This document shows positions 27,234-53,729 of a DNA stretch of 64,000 bases, piece by piece (position 1 is the first letter of the stretch; the number at the start of each line of letters is the position of its first letter). The notes beneath the pieces are model-generated. The model saw only the letters and a program-made list of their open reading frames with translations. It made no database searches and had not been told where the DNA came from. The stretch comes from a virus. The DNA lies in the IMG/VR virus record IMGVR_UViG_3300046507_000371, positions 1 through 64,000 of that record; one strand, written 5' to 3'. The position numbers and the translations under genes are program-made.

Positions 27234-28403
27234 ATGAGCAAACCAAACGACCCAGTAGATCCAGATACCCTAGCGGTTTCAGGCGATGCATTCCATCAGA
27301 TGCTATCAACCATCGATGTAGATGTGCAACTTAACGCACTCAAGGCTGAGATTAAGGAAACTAAATCTCCGTCTAAGAGAGATGCAATTATAAAGAAAAT
27401 CAAGTACTTAGCCGGGCTAAAAAAAGTCGATTTGAGACCAGAGACGGCATATGTGCTTCACAATATTCCAGTCACTCCTCCTCTTGTTCGACCTAGTATT
27501 CCTATGGGTGGAAACCGTATTGAGTTTGCTGACGTAAATACGCTTTATCGTGACCACATGACCATCAACAATTCGTTGAAGGACATTAAGGATGACCTGA
27601 CTCACGATCAACTAGTAAATGAACGTAAAGATGCGTATAACGGAGTCAAGGCTATTTTTGGTCTTGGCGATGCTGTTTCAGGAAGCGCTCGTGGTAAAGA
27701 GCTTAAAGGTTATATTCAACAAATTTCTGGAGACACTGGTCCGAAGGGCGGTTTCTTCCATAATAAGCTCCTAAAGAAGAAACAAGACTTCTCAGGTCGA
27801 GCAACGATTTATGCAGAGCCTAATCTTGGCTTTAATGAAGTAGCCGCACCAAAAGATATGCTGTGGACCATGTATGAGTTCCACATTATTCGTGACTTGG
27901 TTCGTAATGGTTATGATTGGATTGCTGCTAGAAAGGCTGTAGAGAAACGTGACGTTGCTGCAACTAATAGTTTCAATAAGATGATTAAGCAAGTTCCGGT
28001 AATTCTGAACCGTGCTCCTACTCTTATGAGAACAAACATTACAGCTCACTTTCCTGTGCCAATTGAAGGTAAGACGCTTGGTATTAACCCACTTCACCTT
28101 CCGATGTATGCAGGTGACTTCGACGGCGACGCTTTAACTTTGCACGTACCAATGACTCCTGAAGCAGTTGAAGAAGCTAAACAAAAGCTTCTGCCACAAC
28201 AACACATTTACGATTACCGTAAAGGTCAAGGCGCTTCAATGGTAGCTCCTGGTCACGAAGCAGTTATCGGTTCGATGGCAATTACGGAGCCAGATACAAG
28301 TCAAGAGCATCGTGAATTCGCAACGGAGGCAGAGGCTCTAGAAGCTCTGAAGCGTGGCGAGATAAACGAAAACACCCCGCTTAAAATCACAAGTCACGGT
28401 TAA
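27234..28403 (+). CDS. rpoC: RNA polymerase beta-prime, N-terminal part
   Basis: The 389-aa product carries the beta-prime active site: L-N-R-A-P-T-L near residue 260 and G-D-F-D-G-D near 294, whose three Asp hold the catalytic Mg. A G-K-G-G-F-F-H-N-K-L-L-x-K-K-x-D-F-S-G-R-A block near 180 matches bacterial beta-prime. The usual N-terminal zinc ribbon and most of the clamp are missing. The protein ends soon after the active site; the remainder of beta-prime is encoded 7.8 kb away at 36187. Only a weak box B (CTTAAAATT at 27216) precedes it. Confidence 0.92.
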   Translation: MSKPNDPVDPDTLAVSGDAFHQMLSTIDVDVQLNALKAEIKETKSPSKRDAIIKKIKYLAGLKKVDLRPETAYVLHNIPVTPPLVRPSIPMGGNRIEFADVNTLYRDHMTINNSLKDIKDDLTHDQLVNERKDAYNGVKAIFGLGDAVSGSARGKELKGYIQQISGDTGPKGGFFHNKLLKKKQDFSGRATIYAEPNLGFNEVAAPKDMLWTMYEFHIIRDLVRNGYDWIAARKAVEKRDVAATNSFNKMIKQVPVILNRAPTLMRTNITAHFPVPIEGKTLGINPLHLPMYAGDFDGDALTLHVPMTPEAVEEAKQKLLPQQHIYDYRKGQGASMVAPGHEAVIGSMAITEPDTSQEHREFATEAEALEALKRGEINENTPLKITSHG

Positions 28404-29244: not shown

Positions 29245-30606
29245 TTAGAGATTTACACGGTCTAGTTCGCCGTCAGCGAAACCATTGTAAACTGGGAATC
29301 TGATTTGACCGCCTGGAACGCTAGGAGGATATGCCTTAACTTGGATAAGCTTCTCATTGAACAGATCAGGAGTCTTCCAAGCATTGATACGAGTATCTCT
29401 ATCAAAGCCTGTTCCAACCTTACCAACCATTCTTCCTGAAGCATCCGCAAGAATCAACGCACCCATGCTGTCTTTGGGATTGCCTTTGATGTCGATTTCT
29501 TGTTGTTGACCAATTACCTTCAAGTTGTACGTTACGTAGTTCTTGACTTTGTATCGTACTGATTCTGTCTCTGGCTTAGCATAGTCTGCAACGATTAAGC
29601 CTTCTCCCTTTTGCTCTTTAATCCTGTCTAGATACTTGTTGATGTTCTCAACGCCGTGTTCTAGATGAGGAGAGAACAGAAGATCTGGCTCACCATAAGC
29701 TTGTTCGAATTTCTGAATGTATTCGACTTTATCTTTATACGTTGGCAGGTCTGGATTCTTAACATCGATAAGCACTGCACGAACTGGACCTTTTTCCGCC
29801 TGAGTTGCAATTGAACGTGGAGGAAGAGAATTCAGAATACCGGAAACAGTAGGGTGAGACTCCGTTTCAGACTTTGCAAGACCTGTATGTACAAGCTCTA
29901 CCGCAAATTGGTTTCCAGCAAATTCTGGCATCGGTTTAGCTAGGTGAGGAAGCTGTGCTGAACGCTCAGGAAATCCACCTTTTACGCTAGGTCTGCGGGA
30001 ATGATAAGTTAGAGAACCATCAGGCTGTACGGTAAGTACGAAGTGAGCACCATCCCACTTCTTTGAAGCTACAGGATGCTCAAGCTGAGTCCAATCTCCC
30101 TCTACGTATTTGTGACGAACGTAGGTATCGATTGAAGCTTGTTTTTGAATATGTTCGAGATATGGATTAATGCCTTCCACGAATAACTGGCTCCCAAGAG
30201 GACCGATCCCGCGAAATGATTGAATCTCTGCCCTGATTTCTTCAGGAGTCCGCTTGTCGATCAGATTACTAATTGTACCATATTTCTCTTTCAAATGTCT
30301 TGCTTGGGCAAGCATCGTCGTGGCAGTAGATTCGTCAAAACGACCGTAATGGCCTTGTACGAGATTATCACGAAGAGTTTCCCATCCAGCAGACTCCACG
30401 GCTTCAGGTGAGTGAAAACCCTGTGAAGCCATGTGTTTCGCAGCCATACCTGCTACTGAGCGCTGGATAGGTCTAGAAAAAAGAGTGACAGCCGTCATCC
30501 ACTTGTACAGTTCTTTCTCGTCGCCTTTAGACAAGTCAAAGCCAAGACTCTCTGGGCTAGCAGGTTCTTTAAGGTCTGTCGCTACTTTTTCTAGGTATTT
30601 ATTCAT
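29245..30606 (-). CDS. tagged HhH-domain/ATP-dependent DNA ligase fusion
   Basis: The 453-aa product begins with the tag M-N-K-Y-L-E-K-V-A. Residues 30-165 resemble an HhH-GPD (endonuclease III-like) domain with F-R-G-I-G-P-L-G at 131-138. An I-D-T-Y-V near 159-163 may hold the glycosylase Asp. Residues 178-453 are an ATP-dependent ligase: K-W-D-G (nucleotidyl Lys183), E237, E-G-L-I-V at 335-339, Y-K-V-K at 352-355, then an OB-fold (G-K-V-G-T-G-F). An I-Q-K-Q-A-S site at 153-158 resembles the K-x-A sites of the head proteins. Base excision plus sealing in one chain is inferred; a structural HhH role without glycosylase activity is the alternative. It overlaps the next gene by 4 bases. Confidence 0.85.
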   Translation of the reverse strand: MNKYLEKVATDLKEPASPESLGFDLSKGDEKELYKWMTAVTLFSRPIQRSVAGMAAKHMASQGFHSPEAVESAGWETLRDNLVQGHYGRFDESTATTMLAQARHLKEKYGTISNLIDKRTPEEIRAEIQSFRGIGPLGSQLFVEGINPYLEHIQKQASIDTYVRHKYVEGDWTQLEHPVASKKWDGAHFVLTVQPDGSLTYHSRRPSVKGGFPERSAQLPHLAKPMPEFAGNQFAVELVHTGLAKSETESHPTVSGILNSLPPRSIATQAEKGPVRAVLIDVKNPDLPTYKDKVEYIQKFEQAYGEPDLLFSPHLEHGVENINKYLDRIKEQKGEGLIVADYAKPETESVRYKVKNYVTYNLKVIGQQQEIDIKGNPKDSMGALILADASGRMVGKVGTGFDRDTRINAWKTPDLFNEKLIQVKAYPPSVPGGQIRFPVYNGFADGELDRVNL

Positions 30607-30989
30607 GTTTTACGACTTGCGTTAAGGTGACGCCACATTGTGTTATCTACTTTAACTTCCTCAGATTTTTGTTTATTGCCACCATGAGCGAGAAACGGGG
30701 CTAGAGCTAAACCTAAAGCTCCGCCTACAGCAGCTGTTCCAGCTGTAACTTTAGCAGTTCTTGCGGGATTTTTAAACCATTGTTTTCCTGCTGCTGTAGC
30801 TGCCGTAACTGCTCCAGTTGCTGCAAACCCTGCCGGAATAACAGCTAAGGCTTTAAGGTGATGATGATGGTCATTCTCTTTTGCAAACTGTTTCCTTACT
30901 TCTGGATCAGGCACATGGAAACGCCCATTATCATAGTGAATACCCTTAACGTATTCAAAAGCTATTTTTTCTAGATATTTGTTAGTCAT
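30603..30989 (-). CDS. tagged small membrane protein, 128 aa
   Basis: Begins M-T-N-K-Y-L-E-K-I-A, the shared tag. A polar His-rich segment (D-H-H-H-H) near residue 40 is followed by two Ala/Gly-rich hydrophobic helices at about 46-66 and 80-101. Its gene overlaps the ligase and helicase-fusion genes by 4 and 8 bases, so the three are translated together. A membrane-associated or DNA-ejection role in the packaged set is inferred. Confidence 0.75.
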   Translation of the reverse strand: MTNKYLEKIAFEYVKGIHYDNGRFHVPDPEVRKQFAKENDHHHHLKALAVIPAGFAATGAVTAATAAGKQWFKNPARTAKVTAGTAAVGGALGLALAPFLAHGGNKQKSEEVKVDNTMWRHLNASRKT

Positions 30990-32913
30990 TTTTCATCAAA
31001 CCTTTTACTTCATCAAACAACTCTTCCTTCGTATCTGAGTTTTCTGACAGATACTTGTCAATCGAGTACGGCGTCTTGCCCCATAGTGGCTTAGGGTGTA
31101 CGCTGTGGAAATGCTCAACTAATACTTTACGTTCTTCTTCTGGCAAGTGTGCATGTGAACCAAATCTAACTGCACGGCCTACTACTTGGTTAATCTTACT
31201 TGGGTTAAAGTGTGGCTCAAGTACCTGTACACGCTTCGTTCCCTTTGAATCCAGTCCTTCTGAACCTGAAGATGAGATCAACAGAATTTTCTTCCTACCA
31301 GAGTTGTAGTCCTTGACTAACTGGTCCTTCTCTGCTCTTGACAGTGAACCGTCATAGACAGCGTGGTCAATCTTCATTTCTTGAAGTTTTTTGGAGTAGT
31401 CTCTTAGTCCAGCATCAAGATAATTTGAATACACAAGGGCTTTGAAGTTCTTATCCTCCGACATACCCTTTTGGAGGCTCTCTACGGCTTTGAGAATCTT
31501 AGGTGAGTACTCAGCCTTACCGTCGCTTGTCAAATGCCTGTAGCCGTTAGAAACCTGCCTTACGCCTGTTGAGAAAGCATTGAGGTTAGCCTTTTCTTTC
31601 TTGTCCAGTGGTAGATTGTGACGGATCTTCATTCTCAGCAAGAACGGAATCTTACCTTCAGCGAACTTGTAATACTTCTGCTGCTCTTTGGACATCGGTA
31701 CTTCAACGATAGTCTCTGTCTTCTTCGGGAAATGCTTTGCTGCTTCCGGATCATCTTTGCTATCGTAGAAGCTTACGTACTGATTGAGAATTTCTTTAAG
31801 CTCTTTTCTACGGTCAAGTCTACGCACTGCTTCAGGCTTGGCTCCTAGAAGTCTATCTTTGAAGCCCGGCTTAATAATTTCTTCCTTCGTGTAACGATCA
31901 TCCATTTTCTTTGATTCTTCAGGAAGAACGTTATCATTGGCCGCAATGTTTACAAGAGCGGATATATCAGAGAGTTTATTGTAATTGCCAGTAGCAGTAG
32001 CAAGTAAACGACGATCAGCACCGCTGATAATATCTCGGAGTTCTCTAGTACGTTTAGTGTTCGTATTACGGAGCCTGTGAGCTTCGTCTGCAACTGCGAT
32101 AGAGTAATCATTTTTACGTAATTTGTGAGCATCAATAACAGCTTTCTCATAGGACATTACATCCAGTCGATCTCTGTCCAGTTTGATATTGTGTTTCTTG
32201 AGTTCCTTATCAACGTTCGTGACGAGACTGGCAGGAGCAATGACCAACGCCCGCTTCTTCGGGTACTTCTCTTGATAGCGACGTACTGCCTCAAGGAACG
32301 TCTTAGTCTTGCCGCTACCAAGGCTGTGATGAAGGACGACGCCGTGTTCTTTATCCAAATGATCAAGGGCATCAGTTTGGTGGGGACGTAGATCATCTTT
32401 CTGTTCCTTCTTCTTGGCAATTTTTTCTAGGTATACGTTACCACCAGCATAGTCGTCAAGCGCCCAAGCTCGTTTCTCAATAGAAGATTTGCGAGTTAAA
32501 TATGGGCTCGTACTCTTACCCATACCAGTAATGTTTCTGAGAATCCAAGATTTTTCGTTTTCTTTAGTCGGTGATTTCTTCAGCAAAAACTTCTCACCAT
32601 CTTTGGTGAAGATTACAAGCATAGTCTCTGTACTATGTGGAGCTACAACAGCTTTACGAACCCAATCTAAATACGTAGTTCCAGCACCGTATTGGCCTTT
32701 AGGGATTACTACCTTCTTGCTCAATGCGTAAGCACGATCATGTACAGGCTGTTCAAAGACGCCAATGATTTCGCCTGGCTTCGGCATATCTTTAAGCGTT
32801 GCAAAAGAATACGCCTTGTCCTTGTGGACAAGCCTGAGGTCATAATGAAGGCCCATGACATCAGCTTCGTGTCGTTGCCGGGTAAATAGAAATTCGTCGT
32901 TTGGTTGTAACAT
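30982..32913 (-). CDS. 3'-phosphoesterase/SF2 helicase fusion with internal tag
   Basis: The 643-aa product joins two DNA-repair modules. Residues 8-125 match the LigD-type 3'-phosphoesterase domain: R-H-E-A-D-V-M-G-L-H-Y-D-L-R-L (His15, His23, Asp25, Arg27), P-V-H-D near 58 and I-P-K-G-Q-Y-G-A-G at 70-78. This domain trims 3'-phosphate or ribonucleotide ends. Residues 175-643 are a superfamily 2 helicase with H-S-L-G-S-G-K-T at 196-203, DEAH at 276-279 and G-R-A-V-R-F-G motif VI. Between them, V-Y-L-E-K-I-A-K at 160-167 is an internal copy of the tag, possibly a cleavage site. No Ku gene is visible. Confidence 0.85.
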   Translation of the reverse strand: MLQPNDEFLFTRQRHEADVMGLHYDLRLVHKDKAYSFATLKDMPKPGEIIGVFEQPVHDRAYALSKKVVIPKGQYGAGTTYLDWVRKAVVAPHSTETMLVIFTKDGEKFLLKKSPTKENEKSWILRNITGMGKSTSPYLTRKSSIEKRAWALDDYAGGNVYLEKIAKKKEQKDDLRPHQTDALDHLDKEHGVVLHHSLGSGKTKTFLEAVRRYQEKYPKKRALVIAPASLVTNVDKELKKHNIKLDRDRLDVMSYEKAVIDAHKLRKNDYSIAVADEAHRLRNTNTKRTRELRDIISGADRRLLATATGNYNKLSDISALVNIAANDNVLPEESKKMDDRYTKEEIIKPGFKDRLLGAKPEAVRRLDRRKELKEILNQYVSFYDSKDDPEAAKHFPKKTETIVEVPMSKEQQKYYKFAEGKIPFLLRMKIRHNLPLDKKEKANLNAFSTGVRQVSNGYRHLTSDGKAEYSPKILKAVESLQKGMSEDKNFKALVYSNYLDAGLRDYSKKLQEMKIDHAVYDGSLSRAEKDQLVKDYNSGRKKILLISSSGSEGLDSKGTKRVQVLEPHFNPSKINQVVGRAVRFGSHAHLPEEERKVLVEHFHSVHPKPLWGKTPYSIDKYLSENSDTKEELFDEVKGLMKND

Positions 32914-35540: not shown

Positions 35541-36164
35541 ATGAAAACTTGCTGTAAATGTAAACTTGACTTAGATCTAAATTTTTTCAATAAAAACAAA
35601 TCGTACAAAGACGGACTCCATATAGAGTGCAAGGAGTGTAGACGAAAGTACAGAGAGTCTAGAAAAAACGAAATCGCTGAATACAATGCTGAGTATAGAC
35701 TTAGTATGCCGGAGACTCAGAGAGAAAAATATAGAGCTAGTCAAAGAAACTATTTGGAAAATTTACCTCCAGAAAAAATAGAATTTAGAAAAAAATATCT
35801 ACAAAATTACTTTAGAAATCTTTCTGAAGTTCAAAAACAAGAACGGTCTAAATATAGCAAATCGTATTTAAAAAACAATCTGCATAAACACGCTGCAGTA
35901 CAAGCTAAAAGAAGGGCCTTAAAAATTATGGCAACTCCAATATGGGCTAGCAAAGAAATAATTGATGATTATTATTTAAGGGCAACAGCTTGGTCAAAGC
36001 TATCCGGAGAAGAGTTCGAGGTAGACCATATAGTGCCTCTGAAATCAAATGTAGTATGCGGACTTCATTGTCAACAAAATTTGACAATTTTATCAAGATT
36101 CGAAAACTCTTCTAAGGGCAACCGTTGGTGGCCAGACATGCCGGAACCCGAACCGTTAAAATAG
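35541..36164 (+). CDS. HNH homing-type endonuclease
   Basis: The 207-aa product has an N-terminal zinc ribbon (C-C-K-C near residues 3-6 and C-x-x-C-R-R near 31-36), a long Lys/Arg-rich helix and a C-terminal HNH core. That core has F-E-V-D-H-I-V-P-L near residue 157, then C-G-L-H-C-x-x-N-L and N-x-S-K-G-N. Its AT-rich composition differs from the neighbouring genes, as expected of a mobile endonuclease. It lies directly before the beta-prime C-terminal gene, and its last codons overlap that gene's box B promoter. Confidence 0.88.
   Translation: MKTCCKCKLDLDLNFFNKNKSYKDGLHIECKECRRKYRESRKNEIAEYNAEYRLSMPETQREKYRASQRNYLENLPPEKIEFRKKYLQNYFRNLSEVQKQERSKYSKSYLKNNLHKHAAVQAKRRALKIMATPIWASKEIIDDYYLRATAWSKLSGEEFEVDHIVPLKSNVVCGLHCQQNLTILSRFENSSKGNRWWPDMPEPEPLK
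36155..36163 (+). promoter_or_regulatory. box B promoter (GTTAAAATA) embedded in the HNH stop region
   Basis: GTTAAAATA includes the HNH stop codon and lies 24 bases before the beta-prime C-terminal ATG. Confidence 0.6.
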
Positions 36165-36186: not shown

Positions 36187-38013
36187 ATGACAGAACGTTA
36201 CACAACAGCCGGTGCACTGAAGCTAAAGTCCGAACTACCTACTCAAGAAGCGCGGGATAACTATGACGTGTATCGCCCTCTTGACAAGAAAGCTATTTCA
36301 GATCTCGTCAATGTCCTTTTAAAGCATGGCGGTACAAATAGTCACGAGACTATAAATGATCTTGGTAAAAAGTTCTTCGATAAAGCTACGGCCATCGGTG
36401 CTACAACTCCGCTAACTGACTACATCAACGAAAGTGATGAGCGACAAGCTATTATCGATGAATTTGAAACAAAGGTTCATCAGATTTTTGCTAAGAAACT
36501 TCCAAAGACTAAAGAGAACGATGAGCTTGGCGCATTGACTGGCGAATACAACGGAAAAATTGAAAAGCAAAATTTGGACTATCTTCTTTCTAAAGGTTCT
36601 ACGGCCGCAAAAATGGCACGTACAGGAGCCCGAGGAAATCCAACTCAATTGGCTACTGGTACCTCAACTCCTTTGATGTCTATAAATTTGCGCGGTGAAC
36701 TTGTTCCTTATGTTATCAAGAGTTCATTCGCTAAAGGGATGTCTCCGTCTGAGATGCTTGCAATGAGCTATATGGGCCGTGGTTCTACCGTACTGTCCCA
36801 GCTTTCAACTGCTCTTCCTGGCGCTCTATTCAAAGAACTTTCTCCGACTACTTTTCATGAAGTAATCACGGTAGATGACTGCGGAACAACTAATGGTATT
36901 CTGCTTTCCATCACAGATAAGAAAGGTGCTATTGGCCGGTATGAGGCTGGCACTAATACTCTGATTGACGAACACTACTACAAAGAACTTGTTAATTCTG
37001 GCAAGAAGGGTATTAAGGCTCGTAGCTCACTTACATGTGAAGCTCATCAAGGCATTTGCAAAAAGTGCTATGGCCTAATGGCTAACGGTAAGCTTCCAGA
37101 AATTGGTGAAAACGTAGGTGTAATCGCTGCACAATCAGTTTCAGAAGTTCTTACGCAGTCGATGCTTTCAACCAAACACAAGGCGTCTGTTGGCGCTCGT
37201 AAAGGTAACTCATACGAACAAGCTTCAAACTTGCTTCGTAACCCTGCCGAGAACTTCAAAGACGAAGCAACGATCACGAATATCAATGGCGTAGTTTCAG
37301 CAATTAAACAAACGCCTCTTGGTGACCATCAAGTATTCGTTAATGAACAGATGCACTTCGTACCCAGAGTACAGGGCCTGAAAGTAGCTGTAGGCGATAA
37401 CGTCCTGAAGGGTGATGCTCTTTCAACTGGCGTTGTTAATCCTCGTAAACTGGTAGGCCTAAAGGGTCTAGGAGCCGGTCGTATTCACATGGCTCACGAA
37501 CTACGTGGTATCTACGGTTCAGACCTTGATCCACGTCACTTCGAGTTGATTGCAAAGAATCTTATCAAGCACGTAGAAGTGCAAGATCCAGGTGAGACAG
37601 GCTTTCTCCCAGGCCAGAAGATTGACGTAAACACAGTTCAGAAGTACCTTACGAACACCGCTGGTGAAGTATCTCTTGACAAGGCTGAAGGAAAGCTTCT
37701 TGCAAGAGGCGTTCATGAACTTACTGCTGGTACATTGCTAGATGGCAATCATATCAACGATCTCAAGAGCCACGGCGTTAAAACTGTTCACGTAGCCAAT
37801 ACTGGTCTGACAGTTACTCCGATTGTACCTGGTCTTAAGACAGCTAAGCTTCTTGATGACAACTGGGTTTCAAAACTCTCATTCTCAGGTCTTAAGAATA
37901 CGCTTCGTGAAAGCGCTGCAGTTGGTGCAGAATCAGATGTACACAGCACAGAGCCTATCACTCCATACATTCTTGGTAGTGAATTTGGTGAAGGTCCAGG
38001 AGGCCAATACTAA
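36187..38013 (+). CDS. rpoC: RNA polymerase beta-prime, C-terminal part
   Basis: The 608-aa product continues beta-prime: G-M-S-P-S-E-M-L-A-M-S near residue 186 (bridge helix/trigger loop region), V-D-D-C-G-T near 229, the second zinc site S-L-T-C...G-I-C-K-K-C-Y-G near 280-297, and the invariant G-V-I-A-A-Q-S near 312. The split from the N-terminal half falls after the catalytic D-F-D-G-D, as in other phages with split beta-prime. It is cotranscribed with the downstream transglycosylase gene (TAATG overlap). Confidence 0.93.
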   Translation: MTERYTTAGALKLKSELPTQEARDNYDVYRPLDKKAISDLVNVLLKHGGTNSHETINDLGKKFFDKATAIGATTPLTDYINESDERQAIIDEFETKVHQIFAKKLPKTKENDELGALTGEYNGKIEKQNLDYLLSKGSTAAKMARTGARGNPTQLATGTSTPLMSINLRGELVPYVIKSSFAKGMSPSEMLAMSYMGRGSTVLSQLSTALPGALFKELSPTTFHEVITVDDCGTTNGILLSITDKKGAIGRYEAGTNTLIDEHYYKELVNSGKKGIKARSSLTCEAHQGICKKCYGLMANGKLPEIGENVGVIAAQSVSEVLTQSMLSTKHKASVGARKGNSYEQASNLLRNPAENFKDEATITNINGVVSAIKQTPLGDHQVFVNEQMHFVPRVQGLKVAVGDNVLKGDALSTGVVNPRKLVGLKGLGAGRIHMAHELRGIYGSDLDPRHFELIAKNLIKHVEVQDPGETGFLPGQKIDVNTVQKYLTNTAGEVSLDKAEGKLLARGVHELTAGTLLDGNHINDLKSHGVKTVHVANTGLTVTPIVPGLKTAKLLDDNWVSKLSFSGLKNTLRESAAVGAESDVHSTEPITPYILGSEFGEGPGGQY

Positions 38014-41544: not shown

Positions 41545-41709
41545 ATGAACATATACCTAGAAAAAATAGCGTCTAAAAAGAAGGGTCAGCTTACGATGCG
41601 TAAAGGTCAAAAGGCTATTAAGCATCCCAAGAAGCCTTTTATATCCTTGTCAGCCAAGGTTAAAATAAAGTCACAGAATGGAGCCAAGAATGGCAAACGT
41701 AACCCCTGA
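41545..41709 (+). CDS. tagged basic peptide protein, 54 aa
   Basis: Read directly from the sequence: M-N-I-Y-L-E-K-I-A-S followed by a very basic tail with 16 further Lys/Arg. The tag matches the other packaged-type proteins, and the basic remainder could condense DNA, like T4 internal proteins. It overlaps the next gene's start by 20 bases, and that gene's box B promoter lies inside it. Confidence 0.75.
   Translation: MNIYLEKIASKKKGQLTMRKGQKAIKHPKKPFISLSAKVKIKSQNGAKNGKRNP
41659..41667 (+). promoter_or_regulatory. box B promoter (GTTAAAATA)
   Basis: Lies 23 bases before the start chosen for the core protein gene at 41690. Confidence 0.6.
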
Positions 41710-42772
41710 ACTTATTCGGGATATCTCAGTTCAAGCAGTTGAAGATTTCCTGAACAATAAAGTTCCTCTGAGCAAGGGCCTTGCTAAACAAGCAGCCGCT
41801 TACGAACTGAATGTAGAACAAGTGAAGCGTGCTGTTGAATCAACGAATAACATTGCTTATTTGAAGGTTCTTCAACATGCAGAAGACCGCACAGTAGAAT
41901 TCCCCCTAGCTAAGTTTGCTGAAGTAATGTCAGCAGCTACGATTCCTGAAGGTTTTCAAGAAAAAGTAGCACAAGTAAAAGCAGAAGAGCTTCAAGCAAA
42001 TCTTGAGAAAGAAGCTTCAAGCCACGAACTAGAATTAGTAGAAGCAGAGAAGCTCACATATCTTATAAAGTCAGCAGCAGCTAACAAAGAAGCTCTTGAT
42101 CGCCTAGAGATTGATGCTATCGTTTTAGCAGATACGCTTGTGAAGGCCGCAAAGGCTCTTAGCAAGGATGATGCATGGATGGATAAGCTGGCATGTGTCA
42201 CAGAAGAACAAACGTTCTCAGAGCTTTCTGTCCTCGTTTCTGGCGAAGTTAAAGCGTATCGTGATATTGGTGAGCTAGGTCTATTTAAATCAGCTCAGCT
42301 TAAAGAAGTAAATGCTTTTGCAGATCTGTACAAACAAGCTCGTGAACTTGTTCGTGAACAACGTGAGCGTTCTGGTCTTCAGAAACGCGCTGCTGATGCT
42401 GCGCAAGGTGTAAAATCAAACATGTTCACTAGGGCCATGAACGGAGCTGCAGCTTCTGCTAAGGTTACTGCTCAAAAAGCTAACCCGGCATACGCAGCAG
42501 GTAAGATAATCGGTACTGTAGCATCTTCTCCGATGAGAGTAGCAAAGGCAGTAGGCGGAGCTGTTAATAAGTCTGTTAAAGACAATCTTTCAGCACTTGG
42601 TAAACCCACCATAAAAAATACAGCAAAGGCTATCGGTAAGACTACAGTAAGCGCTGGTAAGTCTTTGTTTAATGCTGCTGGTCCTATAGCTGATGCAGCT
42701 TTCTATGATCCAGGTGTAGACAAGACAACCGGTAGAAGTAACGATGTCTGGAGCGCTCTCCAGCGTGATTAA
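41690..42772 (+). CDS. head core/scaffold-like protein with repeated K-x-A sites
   Basis: The start at 41690 (M-A-N-V-T-P-E-L) has a GGAG site; an ATG at 41678 lacks one. The 360-aa product is helical, with at least six sites of the type L-x-K-x-A: G-L-A-K-Q-A-A, N-L-E-K-E-A-S, L-I-K-S-A-A, L-V-K-A-A, L-Y-K-Q-A-R and G-L-Q-K-R-A-A. The last third is Ala/Lys/Gly-rich and basic, suited to DNA contact. A prohead core component processed by the protease encoded at 44489 is inferred. Confidence 0.72.
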   Translation: MANVTPELIRDISVQAVEDFLNNKVPLSKGLAKQAAAYELNVEQVKRAVESTNNIAYLKVLQHAEDRTVEFPLAKFAEVMSAATIPEGFQEKVAQVKAEELQANLEKEASSHELELVEAEKLTYLIKSAAANKEALDRLEIDAIVLADTLVKAAKALSKDDAWMDKLACVTEEQTFSELSVLVSGEVKAYRDIGELGLFKSAQLKEVNAFADLYKQARELVREQRERSGLQKRAADAAQGVKSNMFTRAMNGAAASAKVTAQKANPAYAAGKIIGTVASSPMRVAKAVGGAVNKSVKDNLSALGKPTIKNTAKAIGKTTVSAGKSLFNAAGPIADAAFYDPGVDKTTGRSNDVWSALQRD

Positions 42773-43351: not shown

Positions 43352-43666
43352 ATGAATAAGTACCTAGAGAAAATCGCATCCGCAAAAGCTGTAGCTGAAT
43401 CCATAACTGGTTTCGGCAAAAGTTTTGCGAAGGGCTGGAAACGAAGCTCAACAACTTCTAAAGTTGGTCTGGGTATGTCTGCTGCCGGTCTCTCTCTAGG
43501 CGCTGCTAATTATAGTAATAGCCTAGAGAATAAGCTTGACAATAAAAAACGTGGCGTACTTGAGGCGCAATCGCTGAACGAGCTTAAGGGTATTTCAGAG
43601 GCTCTTAGGAAAAAGCCTAAGGTAACCGTAAATCTGAAATTAGTCCCTGACCAAAATGCAAAATAA
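43352..43666 (+). CDS. tagged protein, 104 aa
   Basis: Begins M-N-K-Y-L-E-K-I-A-S. The rest is basic with a short Ala/Gly/Leu hydrophobic stretch near residues 47-62. It overlaps the next tagged gene by 11 bases. A packaged internal protein is inferred. Confidence 0.78.
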   Translation: MNKYLEKIASAKAVAESITGFGKSFAKGWKRSSTTSKVGLGMSAAGLSLGAANYSNSLENKLDNKKRGVLEAQSLNELKGISEALRKKPKVTVNLKLVPDQNAK

Positions 43667-44465
43667 GTATTTAGAAAAAATAGCATCAGACAAGAACAAA
43701 GATAAGTCTAAAGTTGTTTCAGCAGTAGGAGCCTCCTTGCTTGGAGGCTTTTCTGCGGGAGTAGCCGGTGGTGCCCTACAGCATGCAGTATCTAGAAAAG
43801 TTGTATCTGCAATATCAGCTTCTCACAGCGATTCTGGAGCAGATCACCACACCCTTAGAAAGTTTATGAAAGATAATGGTTTACATAAAACCACTACTTT
43901 CAATACTAGAAAGCACAATGTAGATAAAATGACTTTTTCAAAGAATCCTTTGGGAAAGATTTATAAACACTTAGCTAGTAATGACGCTCCTGGACCTGCG
44001 TTTCTACGTACCAGAGGGGTAGGTGCTCAAAAAGACTTTGTAGTAGGATTAAGAAATGGTGGAAAGACTGTTAAGAACGCTGACGTTCTAATGCATGAAC
44101 TTGGCCACGCCAAAGACTTCCAAAGTTACGGAAAGCTTAAAGCGTTGGCTCCAATTGCCAAAATGCCCGGAGTAAGTAGTGTTGCTACCATTGCAGCTCT
44201 TTCAAATGACAAGACTCGTGATTACGCTCCAGCCGTTGCAGCTATTCCTGGCGCACTAACTTTAAGAGAAGAAGCTGCTGCTAATTACCATGCATACAAA
44301 GGAATTAAAGCCCACAAGGGAGCTGCCGCTGCTAATAAGTATGTACGCAAGCTTCTACCTTCGCAAATGGGCTCTTATGCTGTTGGGGCTGCAATCCCAG
44401 TAGCCGGTGCATATCTTGCCAAGAAAATTATGGACAAGTGGCATCCGAAGAAAGAGTCAAAATAA
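43656..44465 (+). CDS. tagged zinc metallopeptidase-like protein
   Basis: The 269-aa product begins M-Q-N-K-Y-L-E-K-I-A-S. It has a Gly/Ala-rich hydrophobic segment near residues 23-42, the zinc motif H-E-L-G-H at 147-151 and a downstream R-E-E-A-A-A-N-Y near 212 that could give the third zinc ligand. If packaged and injected it would be an early host-acting protease, by analogy with injected enzymes of T4. Its substrate is unknown, and activity rests on the motif only. Confidence 0.75.
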   Translation: MQNKYLEKIASDKNKDKSKVVSAVGASLLGGFSAGVAGGALQHAVSRKVVSAISASHSDSGADHHTLRKFMKDNGLHKTTTFNTRKHNVDKMTFSKNPLGKIYKHLASNDAPGPAFLRTRGVGAQKDFVVGLRNGGKTVKNADVLMHELGHAKDFQSYGKLKALAPIAKMPGVSSVATIAALSNDKTRDYAPAVAAIPGALTLREEAAANYHAYKGIKAHKGAAAANKYVRKLLPSQMGSYAVGAAIPVAGAYLAKKIMDKWHPKKESK

Positions 44466-44488: not shown

Positions 44489-46003
44489 ATGCTAACTAAA
44501 CTAATCGATACGTCTTCTTTTTACCGTGAAGAACCACAGGTAACTATTCTCGATCCCAAAGATCTTACAGGCAGTCTTATTAAGCAGGCTACGGATTCTC
44601 GCATTCAAGAATTCGCTTCTAAACTAACGCCCATTCAGGGCAAGACGTATCTTCACATTCTAGCTATGGGTGCTGGAGAGTTTTATGGTGCAAACCGTAA
44701 TGCTGACTACTTCCCAGAAAGTAGCCTCATTGATTACCACAATACCTTTGAGACTGCTCCTGCCCATATTTTCAGAAACCACGTAAACAAAAATCCCGAA
44801 ATCGCTATTGGTCAAGTTGTGTACTCTGTCTACAACGACAGAATGCACCGCGTTGAGCTTATCGCTGAGCTTTGGAACGACAAGGCTCCAGACATCGTTG
44901 ATCGTATCGAAAGCGGTGACTGGCCAAAGACTTCAATGGCTTGCCGTACACCTTTCGATGTTTGTTCAATTTGTGGTAACAAAGCTCGTACCCGTGAAGA
45001 GTATTGTGAGCATCTAAGCGAACAGTTGGGTAAGGTTTTCCCTGATGGTCGTAAGGTAATGGCGCTTAACTTGGCTCCATTGCGATTCTTCGACATCTCT
45101 ATTGTATTTCGTCCAGCAGACGTAACTAGCGCAGTTCTACAGAAAGTAGCATCTGAAAGCGAAGTGATTGGTTCAGTGGATGAGGCGCTAATGGCTGGTC
45201 TAAATGACCTTCCGTTACAGAAGAGTGCTACTCTTAAAAAGCTTTCAGAATTAACGAAGGAGATTGATGGCGATGTTGTATCTATCGATTCTAATCTTGA
45301 TAATCTTGTATCACGAGTTAGTGATCCGCAAGGATCGGTTATCGATGTTCTTCGAAATTATAAGCTTAATGAGACTTTTAGTACCTTTGCTCATCTTGGC
45401 ATTAGCCCTTCGATTGGTTTTCTCGCTGAACTGATTGCTAGAAAATTGATGGGTGAAGAAGGGCGCGGCATTGGCCCAATGGCTGCTGCATATTTTGATA
45501 AGGTTGGTCTTACTGCTATTCCCGAATTCGACCGTGATTTCGGTGAAATTACAGAACCCAACATCGGTATCGTTCATGCTATGCTTCCTCATATGCAGGA
45601 TGCCTCGTATCTTCCACAGTATGTTGAGGAACGTGTATCGCTGAACAAACAGGCTTCGACTTACGGTTATGTACAGGGTACTAATGTTGGCTTTGTCGGC
45701 AACGGTCCTCACATCGAACCTACGATTTACGAAAAGTTCCGTGAACAGAATCTCAAGTCAGAAGAAGGGAATAAGTCAAGTTTGATGAAGATGCTTACTG
45801 CCATTGCTGCTATCGGCGGAGCTGCTCTAGCTGCTAAGTGGTACATTACCCAAGCAATAGAGCGGAAAATGAAAGAGCAAGAATTGAACAAGGCTTCAGA
45901 TGGTGTTAAAATAGTTTTAGTTAAATCTGCTTCTGACTATAAGCTGACTTACAAACTCGCCAAAACAGCGATGGTTAAGTTGGTTCAGAAGAAAAAGAAT
46001 TGA
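44489..46003 (+). CDS. prohead protease with long C-terminal extension
   Basis: The 504-aa product matches the HK97/herpes-type prohead protease fold: F-R-N-H-V...I-A-I-G-Q-V with His98, a Ser149 candidate in K-T-S-M-A, and the closing F-D-I-S-I-V-F-R-P-A-D block near 201-211. An inserted Cys/His cluster (C-S-I-C at 159-162 and C-E-H at 173-175) could bind zinc. The 290-residue extension contains V-L-Q-K-V-A-S (217-222), L-Q-K-S-A-T (243-248) and L-V-K-S-A-S sites, likely self-cleavage points. Such proteases mature scaffold and capsid proteins inside the prohead. Confidence 0.8.
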   Translation: MLTKLIDTSSFYREEPQVTILDPKDLTGSLIKQATDSRIQEFASKLTPIQGKTYLHILAMGAGEFYGANRNADYFPESSLIDYHNTFETAPAHIFRNHVNKNPEIAIGQVVYSVYNDRMHRVELIAELWNDKAPDIVDRIESGDWPKTSMACRTPFDVCSICGNKARTREEYCEHLSEQLGKVFPDGRKVMALNLAPLRFFDISIVFRPADVTSAVLQKVASESEVIGSVDEALMAGLNDLPLQKSATLKKLSELTKEIDGDVVSIDSNLDNLVSRVSDPQGSVIDVLRNYKLNETFSTFAHLGISPSIGFLAELIARKLMGEEGRGIGPMAAAYFDKVGLTAIPEFDRDFGEITEPNIGIVHAMLPHMQDASYLPQYVEERVSLNKQASTYGYVQGTNVGFVGNGPHIEPTIYEKFREQNLKSEEGNKSSLMKMLTAIAAIGGAALAAKWYITQAIERKMKEQELNKASDGVKIVLVKSASDYKLTYKLAKTAMVKLVQKKKN

Positions 46004-46061: not shown

Positions 46062-46925
46062 ATGATGAGTTTCACTCTAGACGGTCTTCTTAATGATCTG
46101 CAAAAAGAAGCTGGCCTCCATAAAGTAGCTAGTGAAGATACAGAGAAAGAAGAAAAGAAAGATGAAGATAAGGCAGAAAAGGCTATCGACAAAGCTGACA
46201 AAGATGTAAAGGAAGCTAAGGAAGAAGTCAAGGACGCCAAAGAGAAGAACGATGCTGATGAACGTGTCAAAGAAGCTGCGGCTAAAGGCGCTGACTTAGC
46301 AAAAGAAGTAATGCAAAAAGTTGCATCCATTAAACTTGATCAAGTTAAACCAGAGGATACTATGAACAAACAAGCTGCTGACGCAGGCAAGGCACTAGCC
46401 GAAGCTCTTCTTGAAAAGCTGGCTTCAGTAGGTGACCAAAATACCGTTAACGGTATTGGTAATGCTGTACCGAACAAGACACAACAAGATCTTGCAGCTC
46501 AAGTAGCTGAACAAGATGCTATCATCCAGAACCAACCCGGCACAGACGGCAAGGGTAATGGTGGTACAATCAACCAAATCTTCGACGCAATCGTTGCTGA
46601 CGCAATGGCTCGTGGAGCTGCTCCAGTTGATCAAAATCCTGCTCCTGGCATTGCTAAGGATGAAGGCGCACAAATCGGTGCACAAGCTCCTAACCAAGTT
46701 CAAACTGGTGGTTGGGTAACGGCTGGTCAAGAAAAGGCTGCTGCAGTTTCATCACTCGTTGAGCAAGGCTTTGAATTTGACGATGCAGTAAACATGGTCA
46801 AGGAAGCTGCTGAAGAAATCGAACGTGAAGAAGCTTCACAAGTTAAGCAAGCTGCACTGTCACACTTCATCGAAGCTGGCTTCGATTTTGACACCGCAGT
46901 AAACTTGGTAAAAAAGCTGGGCTAA
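46062..46925 (+). CDS. head core/scaffold protein, zero-frame product (287 aa)
   Basis: The product has a Lys/Glu-rich coiled coil (about residues 25-75) and many K-x-A sites (L-Q-K-E-A, M-Q-K-V-A-S, M-N-K-Q-A-A, L-E-K-L-A-S, V-K-Q-A-A). Two copies of a helical repeat of the form L-x-x-x-G-F-x-F-D-x-A-V-x-x-V-K follow near its C-terminus. It lies directly after the prohead protease gene, typical for a scaffold or core protein. An A AAA AAG slippery site four codons before the stop allows a longer -1 frame product (see next entry). Confidence 0.78.
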   Translation: MMSFTLDGLLNDLQKEAGLHKVASEDTEKEEKKDEDKAEKAIDKADKDVKEAKEEVKDAKEKNDADERVKEAAAKGADLAKEVMQKVASIKLDQVKPEDTMNKQAADAGKALAEALLEKLASVGDQNTVNGIGNAVPNKTQQDLAAQVAEQDAIIQNQPGTDGKGNGGTINQIFDAIVADAMARGAAPVDQNPAPGIAKDEGAQIGAQAPNQVQTGGWVTAGQEKAAAVSSLVEQGFEFDDAVNMVKEAAEEIEREEASQVKQAALSHFIEAGFDFDTAVNLVKKLG

Positions 46926-46983: not shown

Positions 46984-47467
46984 AAAAGTCACACGTATTC
47001 CAGGCTCAGGTGGGGGTCCCAAGAATGTTATGGGTGCTCCACGCACACTGAATAAGGCTAGGGTCGCAGCAGCGGCCACTGGCGCAGGAGTCTTAGGTCT
47101 AGGTGTTGGCGCCGCAGTACAAAAGAACAAAAACCAAGAAAAACAAGCTGCAGTAAGTCTTCTGGTAGACTCAGGTCTGGATTTTGAAAATGCAGTTGAT
47201 CTAGTAGAAAAGAAGGCTTCTGAGTTAGAAAAAGAAGCTCTTCTTAGTGCACTAAGTGGTTATGCTGGATCCAAGAAAGGTGATAAAGTAGGTGGTACCT
47301 TATCAGGATTCGTAACCGGTACTGCAGGTGCAGTAGCAGGTGTTCATGCAGCTGGACTTCCAGGACTTGTTGCAGGATCTGTCGGCGGTGGATACCTTGG
47401 CGGAAAAGCATATTCGGCAATCAAAGGTGCTCTAGCAGACAAGAAACATAAATCTAAAGCAGACTAA
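46916..47467 (+). CDS. -1 frame extension of the core protein (fusion about 468 aa)
   Basis: After slippage the frame continues from 46916 as A-G-L-T-K-E-A-G-V-L-Q-L-A-G-K and runs without a stop through 47467, adding about 183 residues. Conventional annotation would give a separate ORF at ATG 47030 without any ribosome site. The extension carries another copy of the G-L-D-F-E-N-A-V-D-L-V repeat and the sites E-K-Q-A-A, V-E-K-K-A-S and L-E-K-E-A. It ends with a Gly/Ala-rich, membrane-like region and a basic tail. It would be a minor long form of the core protein. Confidence 0.72.
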   Translation, partial: AGLTKEAGVLQLAGKVPGTSLAQKVTRIPGSGGGPKNVMGAPRTLNKARVAAAATGAGVLGLGVGAAVQKNKNQEKQAAVSLLVDSGLDFENAVDLVEKKASELEKEALLSALSGYAGSKKGDKVGGTLSGFVTGTAGAVAGVHAAGLPGLVAGSVGGGYLGGKAYSAIKGALADKKHKSKAD

Positions 47468-47536: not shown

Positions 47537-47962
47537 ATGAACAAATATCTTGAAAAAATCGCTAGTCTTAATTTTGACATGGACACTCAAGGTCGCATCA
47601 AATCGGCTGGTATGATTGTCAAGAAAGATGTAAGCCTAGGGAAAGTAAAAGAACCAGCGCCTATTACGGCACCTGGTTCAAAACTGATACGGGGAGCTAA
47701 GACTCTCTTTACCAGAGCGTTGTATAAAGCTGCGCAGGATTTAACACATAAACAAGAGCTGGTCAACACTGGCGTAATCGCTGGTTTGGGCACAGCTACA
47801 GGCTTTGGTGCTCATAAGCTGATGAACTCTATGCCTAAGGTATTCGGGCAAGGTGCCAAACTTCACAACGCTAAAATTATGGCGTTAAGTGGAGCAGCTG
47901 GTTTAGCAGCAGACTATGCTGGTGTTAAACTAAATAAACAGATTAACAAACATGTCCAATAA
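47537..47962 (+). CDS. tagged protein, 141 aa
   Basis: Begins M-N-K-Y-L-E-K-I-A-S. Its first 29 bases are identical to those of the tagged gene at 53466, though the proteins then diverge. A possible hydrophobic hairpin (V-I-A-G-L-G-T-A-T-G-F-G-A and L-S-G-A-A-G-L-A-A-D-Y-A-G-V) lies in the C-terminal half. Packaged internal protein inferred. Confidence 0.76.
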   Translation: MNKYLEKIASLNFDMDTQGRIKSAGMIVKKDVSLGKVKEPAPITAPGSKLIRGAKTLFTRALYKAAQDLTHKQELVNTGVIAGLGTATGFGAHKLMNSMPKVFGQGAKLHNAKIMALSGAAGLAADYAGVKLNKQINKHVQ

Positions 47963-48443
47963 GTACTTAGAGAAAGTTGCTTCCATATTTCCAAGCAAAG
48001 AATATAGAAAGACTTTACATGGAAGAGAAAAAGCTAACTACGATGTAGAATACGCTACTGCTGGCAGATCTAGTCTTAAAAACTTTGGAAAAACTCTTCT
48101 GGGTATCGGAGCAATAGGCTTAGGTGCTGGGTTTGGGCATCATGGCGGAGCTACTCTCGGTGGTAAAATCGGAGCCAAGATTGGAGCCAAGCAAGGAAAG
48201 AAATTTGGTGCTGAGGCATATAAGAGTCTTATGGCAGGTGGTAGAACTCCAGAGCGTGAAGCTAAAGGCTTTGCAGTGTATGCCCATGACATGATTAAAC
48301 AGAAGACTCAAAATGCAGGTAGGGCTGTAGGCGGTGTTGTCGGAGGTACGGCAGGCATGATTCCGGGAATAGCTTACGCTGATAACTTCAGACACAACCA
48401 CGCTAAGAGCGTAATCGAGAAAAGACGTAAACAAAATGACTAA
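47952..48443 (+). CDS. tagged protein with Gly-rich membrane-like region, 163 aa
   Basis: Begins M-S-N-K-Y-L-E-K-V-A-S and overlaps its neighbours by 11 and 8 bases. Two Gly/Ala-rich stretches (L-G-I-G-A-I-G-L-G-A-G-F-G and A-V-G-G-V-V-G-G-T-A-G-M-I-P-G) resemble membrane-active segments. The N-terminal 45 residues are basic. A role in DNA ejection or membrane passage is possible. Confidence 0.74.
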   Translation: MSNKYLEKVASIFPSKEYRKTLHGREKANYDVEYATAGRSSLKNFGKTLLGIGAIGLGAGFGHHGGATLGGKIGAKIGAKQGKKFGAEAYKSLMAGGRTPEREAKGFAVYAHDMIKQKTQNAGRAVGGVVGGTAGMIPGIAYADNFRHNHAKSVIEKRRKQND

Positions 48444-49035
48444 ACTATCAACAATCCTCAAAGACCACGCTGAAACAGTTCGTCTTGCAACTCCCGAAGC
48501 TGTTGCTATCGAACATCTTAAGCAAGCTGGTTTTAGCGATGCAGATGCTCGTTATCAAGTAGCTCAACATATCATGGAAAAAGAGGCTACGTCAGCTCTA
48601 GCTATGAAGGGCGTTGATCATGAAGAAGCTGTAAAGCTTGTTAAAGCAGCAAACATTAACGTTGCTGAACTTTCAAACTTCGTTCTTGAAGTAGATGAAA
48701 ATCCAACGGTTGAACTTCTGCACAAGACAGCTGAATACGTTGATGCTCTAGAAGCCCAAATCGAAGGCCTGAAGGCTGAGATTGAGAAGCAGGCTACCGA
48801 ACATCAAGTCGCACTCGACAGGGCTCTAGAAGTGCCTGTAGAGATGCCTGAGCAAATCACTAAGCTGGCTTCTGCCGCTCAGTTCACACAAGAAGATCTG
48901 GAACAACTCCAACGAGTCTCTCCTGAAGTTCTTCAGAAGGTTGCATCTGCAATGGATGAACCGTGGGGAATGGGTAATGGCGTAGGCTTTGCTCGTCCTA
49001 AGACTGATCCCCTTCTTGAATTCATGCTGAGCTAA
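48436..49035 (+). CDS. scaffolding-like protein with K-x-A sites, 199 aa
   Basis: Directly upstream of the decoration and capsid genes, the usual scaffold position. It has a coiled coil around residues 95-135, two copies of the G-F/V-D-x-x-x-A-V-x-L-V helical repeat, and sites M-E-K-E-A-T, I-E-K-Q-A-T, I-T-K-L-A-S and L-Q-K-V-A-S. The C-terminus (P-W-G-M-G-N...L-L-E-F-M-L-S) could be the capsid-binding end. Removal by the prohead protease is inferred. Confidence 0.75.
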   Translation: MTKLSTILKDHAETVRLATPEAVAIEHLKQAGFSDADARYQVAQHIMEKEATSALAMKGVDHEEAVKLVKAANINVAELSNFVLEVDENPTVELLHKTAEYVDALEAQIEGLKAEIEKQATEHQVALDRALEVPVEMPEQITKLASAAQFTQEDLEQLQRVSPEVLQKVASAMDEPWGMGNGVGFARPKTDPLLEFMLS

Positions 49036-49613: not shown

Positions 49614-50507
49614 ATGAGCGCATATAACACAGAAACCGTAAACGTACAATTCCTGAATCAATCTTTCCTAGACAAGATTGACCAAGGTCACACCAAAGAA
49701 GCTTCAGCTGCAATGTCAGCTTTCGTACGTCAGAAGCTTCGTGAAGACGGCTTTACCCGTAAGATTCTTACGCCAGTTCAAATCACAGCTTCAGAGCTTG
49801 ATCGCCAACTGACCGAAGAACCAACGGTTATCGTTGAAAAGGAACCTGATTCAGTAGCTGCTACTGCTCCTTTCCTTGGCCGTCCGGAAATCCGTTACTG
49901 GAAGACACAACGTTACCCAGTTACATTCCAGAAGATCCAATCAGCTGACTTCCGTAAGAGCAAGTTCGAACTCGCTACATACCGTACCGACATTCGTACT
50001 ATCCTTCAAGAAAACAGCGTTAAGGATATTCAAGAACAAGAAGACGTAAACTTCTATCAAAACATCAACGCTATTGCTACAGCAAACAGCAACGTTCACA
50101 CCATCGCTGGTGGCTTTACAAAGGCTAACCTGATGGCTGGTATCAAGTTCATGCTTCTGAACAAGCTACCTGTTGGTTGTATCCTTATGACACAATCAAT
50201 GTACGCTGACCTGCTGACTTTTGCAGCAACAGACGTAGGCTCACCGGCAGCATCAGCACTGTTCCAAGGCGAAGCGACTCTTGATAACTTCTTCGGTTAC
50301 AAGATCATCACCACGAACAAGGCTAACATCCTCCCGACGAACCAAGCAATCGTTTTTGCTCCTCAGAACTACCTCGGTCAGTTCTATGAGCTTCAAGCTC
50401 CGACAGTCTTCCTGAAGACCGAAGCAGACATTATCGAGTTCCATACTTACGAAGCTGTAGGTGCTGGTATCGGTAACGTAAATGGTGCAGTTGTTCTAAA
50501 CTTCTAA
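49614..50507 (+). CDS. probable major capsid protein
   Basis: The 297-aa product lies directly after protease, scaffold and decoration genes and has the mixed alpha/beta layout and end (A-V-G-A-G-I-G-N-V-N-G-A-V-V-L) typical of HK97-fold capsid proteins. A K-E-A-S site near residue 28 could be the maturation cleavage point. Ribosome site AGGAAA. Codon use is biased as in a highly expressed gene. A 3' region complementary to the 16S rRNA tail and a terminator follow. Confidence 0.75.
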   Translation: MSAYNTETVNVQFLNQSFLDKIDQGHTKEASAAMSAFVRQKLREDGFTRKILTPVQITASELDRQLTEEPTVIVEKEPDSVAATAPFLGRPEIRYWKTQRYPVTFQKIQSADFRKSKFELATYRTDIRTILQENSVKDIQEQEDVNFYQNINAIATANSNVHTIAGGFTKANLMAGIKFMLLNKLPVGCILMTQSMYADLLTFAATDVGSPAASALFQGEATLDNFFGYKIITTNKANILPTNQAIVFAPQNYLGQFYELQAPTVFLKTEADIIEFHTYEAVGAGIGNVNGAVVLNF

Positions 50508-53465: not shown

Positions 53466-53729
53466 ATGAACAAATATCTTGAAAAAATCGCTAGCGGTGG
53501 TAATCTTGAAATCATTATGGATTTAACTCATAAACATTTTGATTCAAGTATGAAACCAGATCATGCTTTCTTTCCTAAGAACCGTGAAAATAAGGCTGCT
53601 ACAACAATAGCTGGTAAAAAGTTGGTCGCAGCTATAGAAAGTAGATTCGGTAAAATCAATCCCGGTGATCATCACAAACTCACTACTCCGCGTAAAGTAG
53701 CTGAGTACTTTAAAAACAATACGCCCTAA
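53466..53729 (+). CDS. tagged protein, 87 aa
   Basis: Begins M-N-K-Y-L-E-K-I-A-S and shares its first 29 bases exactly with the gene at 47537. The remainder is soluble, with two His-rich spots (T-H-K-H-F near residue 23 and D-H-H-K near 68). It lies 3 bases before a neck/tail gene. Packaged internal protein inferred. Confidence 0.76.
   Translation: MNKYLEKIASGGNLEIIMDLTHKHFDSSMKPDHAFFPKNRENKAATTIAGKKLVAAIESRFGKINPGDHHKLTTPRKVAEYFKNNTP

Follow-up and report, generated by a model that had tools for sequence, protein, structure and literature searches.

What does a peptide that stands at the start of other phage proteins do in the middle of a two-enzyme protein? The window analyzed here, which comprises the first 64 kb of an IMG/VR virus record of 181,435 bases, carries an ORF in which a LigD-type 3′-phosphoesterase (PE) and an Snf2-family ATPase are joined by a linker that holds the sequence YLEKIA, here referred to as the tag. 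The parts of this ORF are as follows.

30982..32913, minus strand: fusion ORF of 643 amino acids (aa), ATG to stop, consisting of PE, tag linker and Snf2-family ATPase
32521..32913, minus strand: LigD-type PE domain, aa 1-131 (profile, alignment with 3p43, model)
32395..32520, minus strand: disordered linker, aa 132-173 (pLDDT of about 30 over most of its length)
32467..32481, minus strand: weaker motif copy IEKRA, aa 145-149, just upstream of YLEKIA
32416..32433, minus strand: YLEKIA tag, aa 161-166, corresponding to the start of the unfused helicase (MNKYLEKIA)
30985..32394, minus strand: Snf2-family ATPase/helicase, aa 174-643 (Pfam, fold)

The initial annotation had described a PE-helicase ORF with Y-L-E-K-I-A between its domains. 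Both domains were indeed recovered by Pfam in the 643-aa minus-strand product, and the tag lies within the linker. The Pfam LigD_N profile matched aa 13 to 81 (E value of 1.8 × 10−7) with a score of 31.7 bits, just above the curated cutoff of 31.1 bits, and phmmer matched the PE to the solved archaeal enzyme 3p43 (E value of 7 × 10−6). The active-site H, HxDxR, H and Y, whose catalytic roles we take from what is known of the family, matched 3p43 in every phage copy of the alignment. In these respects, the phage PE resembles bacterial LigD and the stand-alone archaeal PE; its active-site residues are intact, and processing of 3′ ends is predicted from them. Unlike in LigD, however, PE and ligase are encoded in separate ORFs, and the PE is joined to phage cargo through the tag. 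The rest of the ORF matched SNF2-rel_dom (E value of 4 × 10−20) and Helicase_C (E value of 1 × 10−15), and a Foldseek search aligned it with ISW1, CHD1 and CHD4 (E value of about 1 × 10−19) and with CSB bound to RNA polymerase II (E value of about 1 × 10−18). The previously assigned SF2 helicase thus has the expected helicase domains, and its type can be specified as Snf2 from domains and fold. An AlphaFold model built from 13 sequences (pLDDT of 79) showed two folded domains, aa 1 to 131 and 174 to 643, separated by a low-confidence segment, aa 132 to 173, whose sole helix (aa 160 to 167) is the tag.

The phage of the window is Arash-like. Among isolates, Salmonella phage Arash and Vibrio phages D69, D148 and D181 are closest to it, sharing 50 to 55% identity in the capsid protein and 50 to 52% in a half of the RNA polymerase (RNAP) beta′ subunit; a scan of genome contigs revealed no relatives of the capsid protein in host chromosomes. 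The fusion ORF sits between the two halves of the beta′ gene (27234-28403 and 36187-38013), where an ORF resembling an HNH homing endonuclease by eye (35541-36164) is also found. On the same strand, 3′ of the fusion ORF, two further tagged proteins are encoded.

30603..30989, minus strand: 128-aa tagged protein MTNKYLEKIA... with a Gly/Ala-rich hydrophobic stretch
29245..30606, minus strand: 453-aa tagged protein MNKYLEKVA... with a weak HhH-like domain, a seam motif and an ATP-dependent DNA ligase (KxDG)
30136..30150, minus strand: IQKQA motif at the HhH/ligase seam (NKYLQKAAF at the same place in L016)

PE and ligase had been taken for a DNA-end repair cassette. The intact PE active-site residues and ligase KxDG motif agree with such a role, whereas a search for Ku, suggested at the same time, found none in 13 records, some of which may be fragments. 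Ku-dependent end joining was rejected for lack of a Ku in these 13 records.

In 55,704 aa of called ORFs of the genome, the strict pattern YLEK[IVLM]A occurred nine times, and eight of these matches lay within the first 20 residues, the ninth being the internal copy in the fusion ORF. All nine fall within the window and none at 64 to 181 kb of the record; the same DNA pattern read backwards gave no match in the genome. Besides the two neighbors above, the N-terminally tagged proteins are as follows.

41545..41709, plus strand: 54-aa protein MNIYLEKIAS...
43352..43666, plus strand: 104-aa protein MNKYLEKIAS...
43656..44465, plus strand: 269-aa protein with a HELGH (zincin-like) motif
47537..47962, plus strand: 141-aa protein
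47952..48443, plus strand: 163-aa protein
53466..53729, plus strand: 87-aa protein

A search of IMG/VR with a DNA pattern for MNKYLEK followed by I, V or M and A yielded 53 stretches. At least one copy of the tag was present in each of the 25 contigs searched, in which the reversed pattern had no matches; these contigs were gathered by the tag itself, but not by its position beside a PE. The tag stood at the N terminus of 82 called ORFs (some from overlapping stretches), including helicase, ligase, HELGH zincin-like proteins, many small Gly/Ala-rich proteins and proteins resembling ADP-ribosyltransferases (ART-like), as judged from weak matches to PARP and KptA. Gene calling followed a simple ORF rule and the contigs are partly related; E values and counts hold for these sets only. 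Across 115 distinct tag sites from related contigs, every tag codon varied synonymously and all synonymous codons were used. The tag is therefore selected as a peptide, and a nucleotide-level signal was rejected on the same grounds. A text search of the literature for the tag returned just unrelated words among the matches listed.

A weaker form of the tag is concentrated in proteins of the head region, which include the following.

41678..42772, plus strand: scaffold-like head protein with several weaker motifs (homologue of Arash gp220)
46062..46925, plus strand: scaffold-like head protein with several weaker motifs (homologue of Arash gp223)
48436..49035, plus strand: scaffold-like head protein with several weaker motifs
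44489..46003, plus strand: head maturation protease (phrog_18299) with the weaker motif at several places
49614..50507, plus strand: major capsid protein with TKEAS at aa 27-31

The motif phi-[EDQ]-K-x-A had 21 copies in the 1,976 aa of seven head-region proteins, picked after their motif counts were seen, compared with 14 in the remaining 51,686 aa of untagged proteins. When the seven were shuffled, the mean was 1.2 and the maximum 7 copies; the reversed motif was without such an excess, and two permuted forms had a lesser excess, with 4 copies each in these proteins. Residues K and A of the motif were 0.83 to 0.97 identical in four of the seven families (ORFs starting at 38875, 41678, 46062 and 48436), while x reached 0.44 to 0.53; conservation of K and A was lower in the protease alignment (0.75 and 0.62) and in the ORFs starting at 69365 and 42801. 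The single copy in the capsid protein is invariant (K28 E29 A30) inside a generally conserved N terminus. The head proteins of Arash and Vibrio phage D69 showed the same pattern, with phi-x-K-x-A present nine times in Arash gp220, eight times each in gp223 and gp242 and six times in the protease gp222, and with MPKSAS or MPKKAS at the start of RNAP beta. The protease was assigned by its match to phrog_18299 (E value of 6 × 10−7), and the homologous place in Gordonia phage Pupper is annotated as capsid maturation protease; its model is of low confidence (pLDDT of 56), and a profile search found no solved relative. By eye, a recurring UBA-like unit, roughly xxLVxxGxxFxxAVxLVxKxA, was seen in the products of 46062-46925, 47030-47467 and 48436-49035 as well as in Arash gp223.

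Of 26 records, 22 contained LigD_N, whose partners vary. Apart from the helicase, the PE is joined to a protein of about 270 aa (G003/21/22, G006, G009 and G023), an ART-like module (G015), an EncFtn/rubrerythrin-like (encapsulated-ferritin-like) module above the Pfam cutoff (G007, L128) or one of three other modules (G008, G014 and G024), and it stands without a partner in G005/10/19 and G016; it thus has seven partner types, the helicase included, or none. All 14 distinct PE seams or tails, a set that leaves out the G002 PE, hold phi-x-K-x-[AS], and the chance of phi-x-K-x-A per 45 aa in untagged proteins of the window's phage is about 5%; since the seams are partly related, no combined P value is given. 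In the two kinds of stand-alone PE, the motif is C-terminal (MPNKYLEKLSHYA; EEMQKKAMQAFYE). Across orthologues, the seam before the 270-aa partner reads NKYLDKVAS, NKFLDKSAS, NEFLDKTAS or GMDKQAS. Because the strong form fades into the weak one in orthologous seams, tag and weak motif look like one element; the HhH/ligase seam, IQKQAS in the window versus NKYLQKAAF in L016, presents a parallel. The motif also stands between other modules: in G018, FLDKAAS and QEKRAED separate modules that elsewhere are separate tagged genes, and in G002 the tag and IEKKA lie between hydrophobic, zincin-like and DnaJ-like parts. Three individual proteins may be recorded here, namely a tagged multi-module protein with hydrophobic, zincin-like (HELGH) and DnaJ-like parts (L093:9403-11304), a tagged protein of three modules, two of which are separate tagged genes elsewhere (L110:11169-12479), and a PE fused to a tagged domain that shows a W..Q.HP.GW..WY pattern and has no Pfam match (L087:4980-5843, G014). 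The phage PE as a query had no match in 50,697 isolate records.

The separate genes of relatives reveal how the fusion arose. In close relatives (>80% identical), the helicase is a separate gene starting MNKYLEKIA. L016 encodes PE and helicase as separate genes in different frames with an 8-nt overlap, the 155-aa PE ending in EEMQKKAMQAFYE and the helicase starting MNKYLEKIAKK..., while in L013 to L015 the helicase is separate and tagged and the PE is joined to another protein. The fused state is found in the window, L011 and L012. Upstream of YLEKIA, which itself is kept, the unfused genes have M-N-K and the fusion has G-N-V. The suggestion that the fusion came from joining a gene to a tagged gene is thus well supported by the split genes of L016 and the tagged, separate helicase of L013 to L015. 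Ancestrally, the Snf2 ATPase would have carried the tag at its own N terminus; the upstream PE gene would then have been joined to it in frame, with loss of the stop and start codons and retention of the tag. In the helicase tree, fused and unfused members of the window's clade are sisters, and the fused forms overall require at least two changes. PE-helicase fusions with other linkers occur in G011 and G018/G025 (GTTGNKYLEKAA; GKTGNKYIEKAA...NRYLVKIA), and a single ancestral fusion is disfavored by the trees and by the linkers of G011 and G018, which are unlike that of the window. One gain of the fusion followed by losses is a possible alternative to repeated fusion. Production of a separate helicase by re-initiation at the tag was rejected, the nearest in-frame ATG, GTG or TTG being 30 codons before it.

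The best-known counterpart is the capsid-targeting sequence of phage T4, a short common start on unrelated head-interior proteins (IPIII, IPII and Alt; protease gp21). For incorporation, the first ten residues are enough; residues 4 and 7 are the main determinants of targeting, processing depends on residues 8 and 10, and Alt undergoes processing at its C terminus as well (PMC9026906). IPIII and IPII start MKTYQEFIAE, with which MNKYLEKIAS agrees at positions 1, 4, 6, 8 and 9, although five common residues of ten could be chance. Like T4, the window's phage encodes a head maturation protease, and just as T4 carries the ADP-ribosyltransferase Alt by means of its targeting start, this phage group has tagged ART-like proteins. 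In contrast to the N-terminal signal of T4, the tag is internal in the fusion ORF, while being N-terminal in eight others; in the phage group it is also found at C termini, K and A are best conserved rather than a scissile Glu, and many more cargo proteins bear it. We consider the resemblance a likeness of working rather than demonstrated homology.

That a helicase orthologue is located in the virion is known from Arash. Its gp217 (L009:14986-16404), which is 42% identical and encoded beside RNAP beta′, was represented in the virion proteome by 38 peptides and 1148 spectra, compared with 1333 spectra for the capsid protein, 3516 for beta, 1210 for beta′ and 467 for sigma gp10 (PMC10585845). 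By our own rough arithmetic, this corresponds to 2.4 spectra per residue for gp217, 4.3 for capsid, 2.3 for beta, 2.0 for beta′ and 2.0 for sigma; the published coverage figures were set aside, since in one case a long protein is given 100% coverage from 2 peptides. Unlike the fusion ORF, gp217 has neither PE nor YLEKIA, and the window's own beta and beta′ are untagged as well. The helicase, beta and beta′ are nevertheless packaged in Arash, so that packaging can at least sometimes do without YLEKIA. Arash virions also contain gp96 (816 spectra) (PMC10585845), whose YHGTS-like motif was recognized by eye in the tagged ART-like proteins. The proposal that the fusion is packaged is thereby strengthened indirectly, by the abundance of its orthologue in virions and by the gp96-like ART proteins, and weakened in that this orthologue is untagged.

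Our preferred reading, to which we assign a probability of roughly 0.7, is that YLEK[IV]A is a head address that works in a T4-like manner, and that the PE borrows it by fusion so that both enzymes are delivered. The tag would be a short amphipathic peptide marking proteins for inclusion in the phage head. As the PE has no tag at its own N terminus, fusion would give the two enzymes one shared tag, and PE and Snf2 ATPase would both enter the head and be delivered together with the genome. The PE would then restore 3′-OH ends by removing 3′-phosphates or ribonucleotides, the neighboring tagged ligase would seal the ends so healed, and the Snf2 ATPase would work either on the DNA as it enters or together with the virion RNA polymerase.

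Two versions of this reading differ in whether the address is cut off. The address may bind a site on the scaffold or shell and stay uncut, leaving the fusion as one bifunctional enzyme, a version to which we give somewhat less than even odds. It accords with the Lys that follows the tag in the fusion ORF, with tags that are N-terminal, C-terminal or inside and with conservation of K and A instead of a scissile Glu. Alternatively, and tentatively, the motif could be address and cleavage site in one, the maturation protease cutting the fusion into PE and helicase in the prohead. Small residues are enriched directly after N-terminal tags (39 of 78 versus a background of 29%, P = 10−4, first position only), and the motif is dense in the protease and scaffold-like proteins, as expected of cleavage sites and not of an uncut address; protease, scaffold-like and capsid proteins are also substrate classes of the T4 and SPN3US proteases (PMC5694885, PMC9026906). 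The seam is disordered in the AlphaFold model, and cutting of the fusion is plausible given the encoded head maturation protease and the many module seams marked by the motif, including those in G018 and G002 between proteins that are tagged and separate elsewhere. However, the residue after the tag is Lys in the fusion ORF and Lys or Arg in unfused helicases, whereas Ser, Ala or Gly is favored after other tags, and known T4-type proteases cut after Glu. We give cleavage at the PE-helicase seam a chance near one in three. Equally tentative is the broadest version, in which YLEK[IV]A and phi-x-K-x-A-[SAG] form a position-independent, cleavable capsid address and cargo polyproteins of Arash-like phages, built by fusing enzymes at the tag and cut by the protease in the prohead, would deliver PE, ligase, the Snf2 motor and further enzymes together with the genome.

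Two further explanations dispense with an address at the seam. The internal YLEKIA could be a dead leftover of a recent fusion, as might be thought from the unfused state of close relatives; this is unlikely, since in L011, at 92% protein identity, the tag is identical despite synonymous changes in its DNA, and the motif is kept at every PE seam or tail examined. Still less probable is a helix binding a membrane or host target, in which case the tagged proteins would be a late-expressed set unrelated to packaging. The Gly/Ala-rich and hydrophobic character of many tagged proteins would suit such a helix, whereas its presence on ligase and helicase, the weak motif in the capsid protein, protease and scaffold-like proteins and the virion location of the Arash counterparts would not. 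If the head-address reading is correct, the proteins injected by a phage group hardly known in culture share one short label, dozens of unknown genes become predicted head cargo, and a LigD-type end-healing enzyme is delivered by phages. Alongside the T4 sequence, the tag would also be a second head-loading address, modular in kind and useful for packing foreign proteins.

A role beside the virion RNA polymerase, instead of in repair, is possible for the Snf2 ATPase. Since gp217 is close to RNAP beta, beta′ and sigma in spectra per residue, the Arash data suggest about one helicase per virion RNA polymerase, and one idea is that the ATPase travels with the polymerase as a RapA/CSB-like partner. 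A virion RNA polymerase, a maturation protease and, by prediction, ejected proteins are features shared with SPN3US and phiKZ, in which the propeptides of ejection proteins differ from the tag in being mostly long and cut at A-X-E. Among the virion proteins of Arash, the 439-aa gp97 (L078:5924-7243, minus strand; 1060 spectra) contains five motif copies between Gly/Ala-rich stretches and thus looks like a chain of small tagged proteins.
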